Positions 54,566 to 60,668 of a stretch of 64,000 bases of DNA are shown piece by piece. Every line of letters begins with the position of its first letter. The first letter of the stretch is position 1. The notes under the pieces were generated by a model, which searched no databases, had not been told where the DNA came from, and saw nothing but the letters and a program-made list of their open reading frames with translations. Source of the DNA: Novosphingobium flavum (lineage in GTDB: Bacteria; Pseudomonadota; Alphaproteobacteria; Sphingomonadales; Sphingomonadaceae); assembly GCF_014230315.1 (NCBI RefSeq), contig NZ_JACLAW010000001.1, positions 248,001-312,000 of the forward strand. Direction: 5' to 3'. A program made the translations under genes and the position numbers.

Positions 54566-56344
54566 ATGTCCCACGCAGGGGCGCTTTCCACTTTGGGTGA
54601 AGGAGTACTCCTCCTCGGCTTTGCCCTGACATTTGTGCTGGTTTTCCGCAGGTTGGGGCTTGGGGCTACGCTCGGTTATCTCCTTGCGGGCATCATGGTC
54701 GGGCCGCACGTTCTGGGCCTCGTCGGCGATGCTCACGCCAAGCTGGGGATCGCCGAGCTGGGGATTACCCTGCTGCTCTTCATCGTCGGGCTTGAGCTCA
54801 ATCCGTCCCGGCTTTGGCGAATGAAGCAGGAGATCCTGGGGATTGGGCTGGTGCAGGTCGTAGCCTGCGGCCTTGCCGTGGCTGGCGCCCTTGTCGTGGC
54901 CGGCTTCTCCCCGACCGCGGCCATTGCCCTCGGCCTGCCCTTGGCGCTGTCCTCTACCGCACAGGTACTGCCCATGCTCCGCTCATCGGGGCAAATGCGG
55001 ACACCGTTCGGCGAGCGGGCATTTGCGATCCTGCTGTTCCAGGATCTCTCGATCATCCCTCTCATCACCATCATCGCCGCGATGAGCCGCAATCCGGCGC
55101 AGGGGACGGAAACGCCCGGATGGCAGCTGGCGCTGTATAGTCTGCTCGCCGTTGCCGGGCTGATCGCAGCTGGCCGGTTCGCGATCCGCCCCCTGTTCAG
55201 GCTCATCGGCAACCTTGGCGAGCGCGAAATGTTCGTGGTCGCCGCGCTGTTCACGGTGGTGGGCGCGGCAGCCCTGATGGAGGCGCTGGGGCTGTCCACC
55301 GCACTCGGCGCGTTCGTGGCGGGGGTCATGCTCGCCGACTCTCCTTACCGGCATGAACTGGAAGCGGACGTCGAGCCGTTCCGGTCCATCCTGTTGGGCC
55401 TCTTCTTCCTGGCGGTCGGCATGCTGCTGGATCTCTCGGCCATCGCGGCACGGCCGCTGTTCGTTGTCGGCATGGCCATTGTGCTGATCGCGGTGAAGGC
55501 TGCCGTGATCTTCGCCATCGCCATGGCCGCCCGCATGCCCTGGCGCCGGGCCCTGGCGCTCGGCCTGCTGCTGAGCCAGGGCGGTGAATTCGGGTTCGTG
55601 CTGTTCACCCAGGCCCAGGGGGCCCTGCTCATTGCCCCCGAGACCGTCAGCCTGTTCGGCGCCGTGGTGACGCTTTCGATGGCAACGACGCCTTTTCTGA
55701 TGGCGGCCACGCGGCGGCTGCGCACCGCGCCGCTGGAGGCCGATGCGGCCCGCAAGGGGCCCGAGGCCGATGGGGCCAATGCCATTGTGGTGGGCTATGG
55801 CCGGTTTGGCCAGACCGTTGCCCAGATGCTGATCGCCAGCGATATCCCGGTTACCCTGATCGACACGGACGTCGAGATGATCGACGTGGCGGAAAGCTTT
55901 GGCGCCAAGGTCTATTTCGGGGACGGCACACGGATCGATCTGCTGCGGCAGGCCGGTGCCGACGAGGCGGAGCTGATCCTGTTCTGCATGGACGGCGACC
56001 AGCTGTCGCCCGACCTGGTCGAAAGCGTGCACGAGGCATTCCCGGATGCCGCTATCTATATTCGCGCGTTCGACCGCCGGGCCGTCATCAGCCTGCAGGG
56101 CACGCCGGCGCGTTACATCGTCCGGGAAGTCATGGAATCCGCGATCAAGATGGCACGGCTGGCGCTGGAAGCCGTATCCGTGAGCGGGGAAGCCATCGAG
56201 CGGGCCGAGGCGATGTACCGAAACCGCGACCGCGAACGGCTGCACAAGCAAATCGAGACTGGCGATGTGCGCAGCGCACGTGACCGCATTCTGGTGCAAC
56301 CCGGCAATGGCGGTCCGTCAGGGTTGTCAGCGGAAGGGCGTTAG
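54566..56344 (+). CDS. Kef-type monovalent cation:proton antiporter with TrkA-N domain
   Basis: The 592-residue protein has an N-terminal sodium/hydrogen-exchanger (CPA2) domain of about 12 helices (residues 10-380, with GYLLAGIMVGPHVLGL, ELGITLLLFIVGLELNP, LSSTAQVLPML and SQGGEFGFVLF). A C-terminal RCK/TrkA-N domain (AIVVGYGRFGQTVAQML, about 412-530) follows. It resembles KefB/KefC glutathione-gated potassium efflux systems, but no KefF/G partner is next to it. The ATG at 54566 is 9 bp from GGAGGAG; the GTG at 54548 precedes the RBS. The final 4 bp overlap the serine recombinase on the other strand. Confidence 0.9.
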   Translation: MSHAGALSTLGEGVLLLGFALTFVLVFRRLGLGATLGYLLAGIMVGPHVLGLVGDAHAKLGIAELGITLLLFIVGLELNPSRLWRMKQEILGIGLVQVVACGLAVAGALVVAGFSPTAAIALGLPLALSSTAQVLPMLRSSGQMRTPFGERAFAILLFQDLSIIPLITIIAAMSRNPAQGTETPGWQLALYSLLAVAGLIAAGRFAIRPLFRLIGNLGEREMFVVAALFTVVGAAALMEALGLSTALGAFVAGVMLADSPYRHELEADVEPFRSILLGLFFLAVGMLLDLSAIAARPLFVVGMAIVLIAVKAAVIFAIAMAARMPWRRALALGLLLSQGGEFGFVLFTQAQGALLIAPETVSLFGAVVTLSMATTPFLMAATRRLRTAPLEADAARKGPEADGANAIVVGYGRFGQTVAQMLIASDIPVTLIDTDVEMIDVAESFGAKVYFGDGTRIDLLRQAGADEAELILFCMDGDQLSPDLVESVHEAFPDAAIYIRAFDRRAVISLQGTPARYIVREVMESAIKMARLALEAVSVSGEAIERAEAMYRNRDRERLHKQIETGDVRSARDRILVQPGNGGPSGLSAEGR

Positions 56345-56754
56345 GCCGGGCCTGGTTGCCGGGGCCATTTCCGCTCCGCATCGGCGCGTTCCTGCAGGAC
56401 ATCCCGTTCGAACGATCTGAAAGCCGCGATGGCGTGGAAGAACGAGCCGCCGCTTTTCTCATTTGTTGCAATGCCTTCGGTCAGTGAATGGAATTCGACC
56501 TGGCGCTTTCCAAGGGTCTCCAGTTCAACCATGAGCGTGATGAGGGACCGGGCAAGGCGATCGAGCCGCCAGACAACGATCTCATCGCCCGGCGCGGCGT
56601 AGGCGAGCATCTCGATGAAGCCGGGCTTGATCACGGCCGAGCCGGACACGTCATGATCCTGCCAAATTCTTACCGCGCCAGCAGCGCGAAGGGCCTCGAT
56701 CTGAATCTCGAGATTTCCTTCGCCCTTGCTGACGCGCGCGTAACCCAACTTCAC
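56341..56754 (-). CDS. Serine recombinase catalytic domain, shortened resolvase
   Basis: The 137-residue product has the resolvase N-terminal domain: LGYARVSKGEGNLEIQIEAL with catalytic S9, DHDVSGSA, VVWRLDRLARSL and the arginine-rich helix FRSFERDVLQERADAERK. Normal resolvases or invertases have a C-terminal helix-turn-helix DNA-binding domain of 40-60 residues. Here the frame ends after the long helix, so that domain is missing. The GTG at 56754 has a GTAGGAGTG RBS. It ends inside the end of the Kef-type gene, suggesting truncation at an insertion boundary. Mobile-element remnant or a resolvase of unusual size; I favour the remnant. Confidence 0.8.
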   Translation of the reverse strand: MKLGYARVSKGEGNLEIQIEALRAAGAVRIWQDHDVSGSAVIKPGFIEMLAYAAPGDEIVVWRLDRLARSLITLMVELETLGKRQVEFHSLTEGIATNEKSGGSFFHAIAAFRSFERDVLQERADAERKWPRQPGPA

Positions 56755-56963: not shown

Positions 56964-58643
56964 TCAAGTGTCCCAATTTTCGGGGCGTTCGATCTTCCGG
57001 CATGTTGGCAGGCCCCGGAAGGTGTTGTGTCCGAAGATTAGCACGTGGTCGCGCGCCGGATCGCCGCTGACGAAAAGCTGGTAGTCGTCCGGGCCGGTCG
57101 TCAACTTGACGAAGTCGTGCTCGGTCATGCTCTTTGAAGTGCCCAGCTGCTCGGGCCAGTGGCCTTCCTCGATGCCCTTGTGGAAGCGCTCGACCATGCG
57201 GCCGCTGAGGTTGCTGAGCCGCAGCCGGGCGTGATCGTAGAAGTGCTGCTTGATCGACTGTTTGGTGAAGCCTTCCCTGATCAGCGAGTCGACGACCGTG
57301 GGCGTCAGGACGATCATTGGGTGAGTGCGTTGCCCGCGGAACACGAAATGGACGTGAAGCTGGTTGTCCGCCATGCGGTTCTCGATATTCAGCAACACGC
57401 CTTCGGCGGTGGGCCAGCCCACCTCCAGCGCGGCTGTCTTTTCCGTCGAGAAAAATAGCGTTACGACATTGTCGTCGGGCGCGAAGCCGCGATCCTCGGC
57501 ATAGGTGGTCCAGCCGATTTCGCGCAGGTATTCCTCGTTCTCGGCCACCACGATCTTGAAATTGTCGCCGAAGCAGCTCTTGTCGGTCTTGTGGAGCAGA
57601 AAGCCGCAGGCATTGCGCGCATAGAGCCGGAGAAAGCGGGCGACGCTGGTATTGGCCTGGAATCCGGGCCGCATCACGCCCTGCGTGCAGTTGAACTTCA
57701 GGTCCTTGATGATCGGGCCATTGAGCAGGATCACGGTCTCGCTGCCGGGCGAGTTGCCCAGGTTGACGTGGCCGAAGTCCGGGTCGCACAGCGCTTCGAC
57801 GATGGCGACGAGAATCGGCATGTATTCCGGGCGGCATCCCGCCATCACGCCGTTCACGGCGATGGTCCAGATCGTCGCCTCGCGGTTCTCGGGCTTGAGG
57901 ATGCCCAGCACCTCATCCGGATCGCGCCGGGTGTGACGGAGAAAGGCTTCGACCTTCTCTATCGTTGGCGGAACGACAGGCAGGCCGTCGCTCCACTCAT
58001 GCTGCAGGAAGTGTTCGTTGACCTCTTCGAAACTGCCGCTGAACGCGATGTCACGCGCTGCATGTCCGCCTGCGATCTTGACGTCGGCGGGTTGGACGGT
58101 GAGCCCTTCCACGACCATGTCCGCCATGAACTCGATCGTGTTCCGGTACACCGTTTCGTCCGGAACCGTGTTCACATGGCCGGGATGGACGGCAAACGGC
58201 AGGTTCGGCAGGCCTTCGCCTCTCGCTATGAACATGCCGGCCGTCTTGAAGCCGTCGCAGCACAGGCTGACGGTCGGTATTCCCAGTTTCTCGACGGCGA
58301 TGCTTGCACGCGTCACGGCGGCAATGCATCCTCCTCAGCAACCTGAGCCGCAGATCACCGCATCGACGCCGAGTTCCTTGAACCGCTCCGGCAGCGAGGC
58401 CAACAAATCCGCTTCGCCGGCGCCGTGAAAGTTGTCGAACTCTTTCCAGCTCACGAAACGGATGCCCGGAAAGCGTTTCGGCAGCTCCGCCTCGAGCGCC
58501 GCGAACATGATGTCGCCCTTGAAGATGCGGTCCCACAACTGAACTACAACCTTGCCCTCAAGCGTATCCAGCCGTTTCGCGAGCCGGACCGTGGCACTCG
58601 TGCTCCTCCCGTAGGGCCGGACGACGTCGTATCTGTTTTCCAT
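56964..58643 (-). CDS. Putative UGSC-family selenoprotein (in-frame UGA read as selenocysteine)
   Basis: Interpreted as one 559-residue protein with Sec at residue 103 (UGA at 58335-58337). If the UGA were a stop, the parts would be a 102-residue piece (58335-58643) and a second frame (56964-58316, GTG start). Residues 1-102 (LDTLEGKVVVQLWDRIFKGD, then VDAVICGSGC), the UGA, then GGCIAAVTRASIAVEKLGIP follow the UGSC-family layout, where GxGxU/CGSC is the redox motif; the motif here is U-G-G-C. The C-terminal domain (about 185-559) contains WSDGLPVVPPTIEKVEAFL and AVNGVMAGCRPEYMPILVA, seen in long members of this family. The ATG at 58643 follows ACGAGGCCGGAA. A SECIS-like hairpin directly follows the UGA. 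Its biochemical role is unknown, probably thiol/selenol redox. A recent nonsense mutation remains the alternative. Confidence 0.72.
58299..58330 (-). promoter_or_regulatory. Candidate bacterial SECIS stem-loop after the in-frame UGA
   Basis: In the mRNA, starting 4 nt after the UGA, GAUGC-(A)-UUGC-CGC pairs with GCG-(U)-GCAA-GCAUC. This makes a 12-bp stem with one bulged A and one bulged U around the 6-nt loop CGUGAC. The loop is 17 nt from the UGA and has a G in its first two positions. These match the published rules for bacterial SECIS elements (loop 3-14 nt, about 16-37 nt from UGA, G at loop position 1 or 2). The pairing was worked out by hand. Confidence 0.65.
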
Positions 58644-59580: not shown

Positions 59581-59590
59581 GGTTGCTGTG

Positions 59591-59965
59591 ATGAATGCAT
59601 TCGCGAAACCCACGCCCGATCGCAGTGTCGTGCTTTCAGCTGCGGTCACCCGCGTTGCCGACCTGTGGGGGCTCAGCAACACGAAGCTTGGCGCTGTGCT
59701 GGGGTTGTCCGGGCCGACGATTTCGCGCTTGAAGCGGGGGGCAACCAAGCTGGATGCAGCCAGCAAGTCCTTCGAGGCAGGCCAGTTCCTGGTTCGCCTG
59801 TTTCGCAGCCTGGACGCTCTGCTCGGCAGTGACGACGATGCTGCTCGGCAGTGGCTCCAGACACCTAACCTCGATTTGGGTGCCAGGCCGATCGAAGCGA
59901 TCGAGACAATGCGCGGGTTGATTGCAGTTTGTGATTATGTGGACTTCTACCGCGCTCGCGTCTGA
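59591..59965 (+). CDS. Antitoxin of the Xre/MbcA/ParS (DUF2384) family
   Basis: The 124-residue product has an Xre-like helix-turn-helix (VTRVADLWGLSNTKLGAVLGLSGPTISRLKRG) and the C-terminal DUF2384 part (SLDALLGSDDDAARQWLQTPNLDLGARPIEAIETMRGLIAVCDYVDFYRARV). It neutralises the RES-domain toxin coded next and probably represses its own promoter. The ATG at 59591 follows a GTG at 59588. The last 29 bp overlap the toxin start, typical of this two-gene module. Confidence 0.93.
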   Translation: MNAFAKPTPDRSVVLSAAVTRVADLWGLSNTKLGAVLGLSGPTISRLKRGATKLDAASKSFEAGQFLVRLFRSLDALLGSDDDAARQWLQTPNLDLGARPIEAIETMRGLIAVCDYVDFYRARV

Positions 59966-60668
59966 GCACCGGCATTACGCCGGGGAAGTCTGGCGCGTCG
60001 TCGAAGCGCAGCACCGGATCTCGACCAACCGATTGTCCGGCAACCGGGATGAGCAGGCCTTGCTGGAGGAACTGATCGAGGAGATCAAACCTCGCCTGCC
60101 TGCGTCAGCGCAACATCTCGACTACTTGCTTGCCGCGCCGTTTCGTTACGGCCATTCCGGGGCCAGCCGCTTCCGCAAGAGCGGAGAGTTGCCCGGCATT
60201 TTTTACTCCGCCGAGAAGGAGGAGACCGCCCTGGCCGAGGCCGCTTACTGGCGGCTGCGCTTCCTTTCGCGTTCACCGGGATTTCGGCCGCCGACGACCA
60301 CGACGGAACACAGTAGCTTCCGGGTCGCCGTCCGCTCGCTGCGGGCTTTGGATCTGACCCTTCCTCCGTTCGACGTGCGCGAGAAGCAGTGGATCGATCC
60401 GGTCGACTACACGGCCTGTCAGCAACTGGCCGCAGAGGCCCGAATTGCTGGCACCGAGATGCTCCGGACGAGGTCGGCTCGGGATGCGGCCGGAGGTTGC
60501 AATGTCGTGATACTGGACCCGGCCGCCTTCGCGGAACGCACACATCGTCTTGGTCGAACCTGGCACTTGCGTTTTCAGGACGGCCGGCTCCTTGCCTTGG
60601 CGGCCTTTCCGTCGTTCGACCAATTGGAGTTCACGGCGGCAGGCTTTGGTCTCGACGAGGAGCGGTAG
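59937..60668 (+). CDS. RES-domain toxin (NAD-degrading)
   Basis: The 243-residue protein has the RES fold pattern: RYGHSGASRFRKSGELPGIFYSAEKEETALAEAAYWR, where the conserved Arg, Tyr and Glu line the NAD-binding site. This is the MbcT/ParT-like group that depletes NAD+ and stops growth. It is longer than many RES toxins (about 150-180 residues), with extra N-terminal sequence. The ATG at 59937 is used; a TTG at 59922 is less likely. It is in the frame +1 relative to the antitoxin, overlapping by 29 bp. Confidence 0.88.
   Translation: MWTSTALASEHRHYAGEVWRVVEAQHRISTNRLSGNRDEQALLEELIEEIKPRLPASAQHLDYLLAAPFRYGHSGASRFRKSGELPGIFYSAEKEETALAEAAYWRLRFLSRSPGFRPPTTTTEHSSFRVAVRSLRALDLTLPPFDVREKQWIDPVDYTACQQLAAEARIAGTEMLRTRSARDAAGGCNVVILDPAAFAERTHRLGRTWHLRFQDGRLLALAAFPSFDQLEFTAAGFGLDEER

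Follow-up and report, generated by a model that had tools for sequence, protein, structure and literature searches.

The window analysed here, a stretch of 64,000 nucleotides from Novosphingobium flavum (contig NZ_JACLAW010000001.1, positions 248,001 to 312,000), carries on its minus strand a gene of the UGSC selenoprotein family at 56964..58643. The reading frame begins with an ATG at 58643, ends with a terminal TGA at 56964-56966 and comprises 559 codons, including one in-frame UGA at 58335..58337 (codon 103, minus strand), which is predicted to encode selenocysteine (Sec, U) on the basis of the translation and of the Sec/Cys column in paralogs and relatives. The original prediction, made from the letters of this stretch, had described the frame from 58643 to 56964 as open except for this TGA, located between VICGSGC and GGCIAAV, and the minus-strand translation confirms both statements. 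It had also counted 450 stop-free codons downstream; the absence of further stops holds, and the correct count is 456 codons after the TGA and 102 before it, 450 amino acids being the length of the open reading frame (ORF) that starts at GTG 58316. Before the TGA, the three codon positions have GC contents of 0.61/0.42/0.80, and after it 0.61/0.41/0.82; both halves of the gene therefore look coding. The read-through product matches the Pfam family UGSC (PF24696) with 113 bits (cut-off 25) over residues 6-182, and this match spans the TGA; the downstream half is also conserved, without decay, in agreement with the conserved flanks proposed earlier.

The predicted Sec is the first residue of a U-G-G-C motif at residues 103-106, which follows the Sec/Cys-x-x-Cys pattern. 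The first and last motif positions are invariant in a hand-chosen alignment of 25 sequences (A5; U taken as C), and Cys106, encoded at 58326..58328 (minus strand), is presumed to be the resolving cysteine. Immediately 5' of the UGA lies the codon of Cys102 (58338..58340, minus strand), a position occupied by cysteine in 43 of the 81 Sec sites compiled below.

The host genome (G000; 4.10 Mb in 26 contigs, listed as 100% complete) contains selA (556 bits), selB (380 bits, with winged-helix domains), selD (420 bits) and a gene for a tRNA-Sec whose anticodon is TCA (69.1 bits), all over curated cut-offs. The named proteins closest to its SecA are from Novosphingobium (88% to N. bradum). A second match to the Rfam tRNA-Sec model (51 bits) is read by ARAGORN as tRNA-Ser. 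Contig C13 carries selA and selD as neighbours; C24, which is 287 kb long, harbours selB, the tRNA-Sec gene and four of the UGSC paralogs. Altogether the genome has five UGSC genes, with TGA at the Sec column in three and TGC in two. The TGA-containing genes are the window gene (C-U-G-G-C), C24:43004 (C-U-G-S-C) and C24:8039 (S-U-G-S-C); those with TGC are C24:269347 (C-C-G-S-C) and C24:279560 (S-C-G-T-C). In a quick tree, C24:8039 and C24:279560 belong to a three-row group (support 100), and C24:43004 and C24:269347 to an eight-row group (support 92); one cell therefore contains fairly closely related proteins in both the Sec and the Cys form.

Among 397 genomes of the host's taxonomic family, 15 contain matches at E<=1e-20, and in three of them (G000, G172, which is of the same genus, and G066) a TGA lies within the match. 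SelA exceeds its cut-off in three of the 397 genomes, the same G000, G172 and G066. Two further genomes (G011 and G297) have the N-terminal part with Cys at the column and no SelA over the cut-off; in the other ten, no match starts before query residue 193, so that only the C-terminal part is covered. From a species-level genome collection we kept 79 loci, the best of at least 586 confirmed matches. The column holds TGA in 76 of them and Cys in two (L080 and L110); the remaining locus, L109, is unreadable in frame and was excluded when hairpins and motifs were counted. These 76 loci, three own paralogs of the host, G172 and G066 make up the 81 Sec sites used throughout, and the seven Cys sites are two own paralogs, L024, L025, L038, L080 and L110.

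The best 120 of 4502 database relatives comprise 88 proteins that start only behind the site, nine with Cys, 21 with a GGGASG form and two with Leu. The 88 include the cut ORF of the window itself (P0002), and their gene models seem to be truncated at the UGA with loss of the active site. In P0011, P0013, P0018 and others of the 21, a GVGGGASGAAADVR-type stretch replaces the redox motif; 17 of these relatives form one group on the tree (Shimodaira-Hasegawa-like approximate likelihood ratio test support 100). The GGGASG label requires one change on the quick tree, and the Cys label at least five.

The TGA of the window gene thus sits on the sole column with Sec or Cys in paralogs and relatives, and by sequence comparison this placement appears to be more than chance, because two more own paralogs carry TGA in the same column. 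We conclude that the SelA, SelB, SelC and SelD of the host very probably decode the UGA at 58335-58337 as selenocysteine. The TGA could instead be a nonsense mutation or an assembly error, which would make the gene a young pseudogene. Its terminal stop is TGA as well, its neighbour is a resolvase-type gene, which makes a decaying mobile segment conceivable, and its hairpin (see below) is weak by folding energy. Such an origin is nevertheless highly improbable for a TGA that recurs in the same column of two further own paralogs and is common to 76 of the 79 best related loci, in a genome with Sec machinery and in a gene that is intact behind the TGA in its frame, its codon-position composition and its conserved residues. 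The original prediction had likewise favoured Sec insertion over random decay and had put the TGA at the position of a redox residue, and it is borne out by the machinery, the Sec/Cys column and the intact downstream half. The genes and residues it had named for a search were found: all four of selA, selB, selC and selD are present, Cys occupies the site in two own paralogs and in other relatives, and the downstream half, whose decay it had considered, is conserved.

Behind the UGA, at 58299..58330 of the minus strand, the transcript can form a hairpin resembling a selenocysteine insertion sequence (SECIS), with a seven-pair upper stem, a one-base 3' bulge, a six-base loop and a five-pair lower stem. 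Two registers were distinguished, with the T of TGA as position 0. In the common one, positions 14-19 pair with 26-31; the second, to which the window hairpin belongs, leaves one unpaired base at position 29. Because pairs were scored up to six in the common register and up to seven in that of the window, their stem lengths are not directly comparable. Of the 81 Sec sites, 78 have an unbroken run of five or more pairs, starting at the loop, in one or other of these registers, both of them picked from the same data as tested; none of the seven Cys sites does. The stem is significant against synonymous recoding (p<=0.05) in 60 of 81 Sec sites. Positions 17 and 28 pair in all 81 Sec sites (31.7 expected) and positions 16 and 29 in 71 (25.1 expected), 17 and 29 being wobble positions. 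The mean folding-energy z-score against synonymous recoding is -1.43 for the Sec sites (34/81 at p<=0.05) and +0.19 for the Cys sites (0/7). Judged from these patterns, the hairpin would act as a SECIS element. Low-level read-through of UGA occurs generally, and near-cognate read-through or misreading as Cys or Trp might yield a full-length protein containing no Sec. We regard this as scarcely credible here, given the complete Sec machinery, the co-occurrence of TGA-bearing UGSC genes with SelA (three of three cases among the 397 genomes) and the presence of the hairpin at UGA-bearing sites and its absence at the seven Cys sites.

UGSC is an established selenoprotein family, listed as 'UGSC-containing protein' in the Global Ocean Sampling survey of 2008 (PMC2398784). 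That survey ranks it among the most abundant selenoprotein families, with 255 sequences (Table 2), and reports a UGSC/Unknown_1 fusion; the window protein is similarly joined to a second domain. A 2026 review (PMC13188914) still groups UGSC with families of largely uncharacterized functions. The window gene is a new member of this known family, and its motif variation is small. Like the UGSC selenoproteins (PF24696; NF041046), its product scores over the Pfam cut-off for the domain and has its predicted Sec at the corresponding position, with Cys three residues further on. Unlike the type, it has U-G-G-C instead of the strict U-G-S-C tetrapeptide, its score for the NCBIfam equivalog NF041046 is under the cut-off (47.8 bits versus 125), for which reason we file it under the Pfam family only, and it comes from a sphingomonad that has five UGSC paralogs. 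The motif of the 81 Sec sites is UGSC in 66, UGAC in nine, UGGC and UGTC in two each, and USTC and UGNC in one each, which makes 15 departures from UGSC, the window gene included. The U-G-G-C form, earlier suggested as a possible variant, is therefore real and minor (2/81); its second case is L096, from Candidatus Rokuibacteriota.

The UGSC-motif selenoproteins described for Geodermatophilaceae in PMC5330540 share with the window protein the decoding of Sec by a dedicated tRNA-Sec. The tRNA-Sec of that group has the anticodon CUA, which implies a UAG codon, whereas the window genome uses UGA and the anticodon UCA. Sphingomonads are described as without selenoproteins in a 2016 paper, with which the predicted sphingomonad UGSC selenoprotein contrasts. 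Among the papers listed by searches of one literature library, we found in titles and abstract openings no report of a sphingomonad selenoprotein and none of a relation between UGSC and PrdB.

The 559-residue product consists of two domains. The N-terminal UGSC domain (residues 6-182; 58098..58628, minus strand), defined by the Pfam match and the AlphaFold2 model, is modelled as an alpha/beta domain of Rossmann/flavodoxin-like type, in which Sec103 lies between a strand (95-101) and a helix (104-118). The C-terminal domain (residues 190-559; 56967..58076, minus strand) is modelled confidently (mean predicted local distance difference test score 91.3), and its comparison with solved folds yielded no clear counterpart. 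In other genomes of the family it forms stand-alone proteins of 358-388 amino acids (L026, L031, L033 and L035), for which we found no Pfam or NCBIfam name.

The NCBIfam family that follows UGSC itself is PrdB, matched by 19 of 83 UGSC members at E<=0.01; the other families listed are GrdF (4), GrdB (3), TIGR01918 (3) and GrdH (1). Alignments of 83 (A2), 58 (A3), 25 (A5) and 14 (A4) sequences were prepared, the last from 14 of the 15 GrdB/PrdB-like stretches fetched (21 matches) with L147 omitted for a long unrelated part in frame. HHalign aligned the UGSC N-terminal domain with these 14 proteins at 95.5% over 93 aligned columns, placing U-x-x-C upon U-x-x-C. The value is 91.3% with the two motif columns masked, 93.3% with the full-length UGSC alignment and 0.4% in a reversed control. 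As in GrdB and PrdB (PF07355, TIGR04483), the U-x-x-C has the same position relative to a VDAV-like strand and an E..GIPT helix end; unlike them, the window protein has no PF07355 match and has a different, long C-terminal domain. On profile comparison, the UGSC Sec module is homologous with that of GrdB/PrdB, in a residue-for-residue alignment.

Since the Sec site aligns with those of glycine and proline reductases, the window protein probably does related chemistry, and the alignment gives an orphan family a testable chemistry. In the proposed mechanism, SelA, SelB, SelC and SelD would insert Sec at codon 103, aided by the downstream hairpin as SECIS, and the full-length protein would act as a reductase, with the Sec103 selenolate at the N-terminus of a helix within the Rossmann-like domain. 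The selenolate would attack a carbon adjacent to a carbonyl or imine group in a small substrate, which the C-terminal domain may help to hold, and would expel a leaving group in the manner of GrdB and PrdB. Cys106 could then free Sec103 as a selenenylsulfide, to be re-reduced by a thioredoxin-reductase-type flavoprotein. That the UGSC protein performs a GrdB/PrdB-like reductive cleavage in particular is plausible, with the balance slightly against it. We would advance only tentatively the wider view that UGSC constitutes a third branch of the glycine/proline-reductase selenoenzyme superfamily, beyond amino-acid-fermenting anaerobes, in which the GrdB/PrdB-type Sec module is fused within a single chain to a large new-fold domain that replaces the pyruvoyl subunit, and which in sphingomonads has expanded into Sec/Cys paralog pairs that reductively cleave C-X bonds of several substrates. 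A thioredoxin-type function is unlikely in our view. It is stated in PMC2398784, the review PMC13188914 similarly places UGSC beside peroxiredoxin-, thioredoxin- and glutaredoxin-like proteins, and U-x-x-C is a thioredoxin-type spacing too; the N-terminal model looks Rossmann-like, and the missing thioredoxin entry in the fold list does not in itself exclude that fold.

Several results weigh against the interpretation developed here. Sec insertion at 58335-58337, strongly favoured as it is, is predicted from the DNA. Apart from the manner in which the two registers were picked, the seven-pair hairpin of the window is borderline by stem (p=0.0535) and not significant by energy (p=0.40), and C24:8039 and G066 fit neither register, their stem being shifted and capped by a GGTC loop. 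The NF041046 score lies under the equivalog cut-off. The GGGASG form in 21 of the best 120 relatives suggests that part of the family works without the redox motif. The window protein scores 18.2 bits against PrdB (TIGR04483; cut-off 300), and GRDB (PF07355) has no match in it or in the whole host genome. None of the four neighbours of the window gene that were scanned is a flavoprotein gene. Finally, six of the 14 related loci with a flavoprotein gene (see below) also contain a gene taken for selB, and the role of the flavoprotein may instead be in selenium metabolism.

In favour of the GrdB/PrdB link, a gene of one pyridine-nucleotide-disulphide-oxidoreductase cluster is present in 14 of the 79 best related loci, a figure that comes with no control rate from random loci. 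In three of these 14, the flavoprotein gene lies within 300 bases of the UGSC gene on the same strand, and the contig that bears the host's other four UGSC paralogs has two genes of this type. At L076, L083, L085 and L088, a thioredoxin-reductase-like gene adjoins a selB gene identified by eye, accompanied in the first three by a selA gene identified in the same way; a link of the flavoprotein with selenium metabolism is possible at these loci. Another cluster, of 62 ORFs, which we take to be Bug/TctC-type solute receptors, is represented in 25 of the 79 best UGSC loci (e.g. L045, L052 and L108).

In the window, the divergent upstream neighbour of the UGSC gene is of the pyridoxamine-phosphate-oxidase type. 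Directly downstream, at 56341-56754 on the minus strand, lies a gene for a protein of 137 amino acids with a resolvase N-terminal domain (PF00239, 105 bits). A small ORF and a gene for a RES-domain protein (PF08808) stand in tandem at 59588-60668 on the plus strand, arranged as in a RES/Xre toxin-antitoxin pair.
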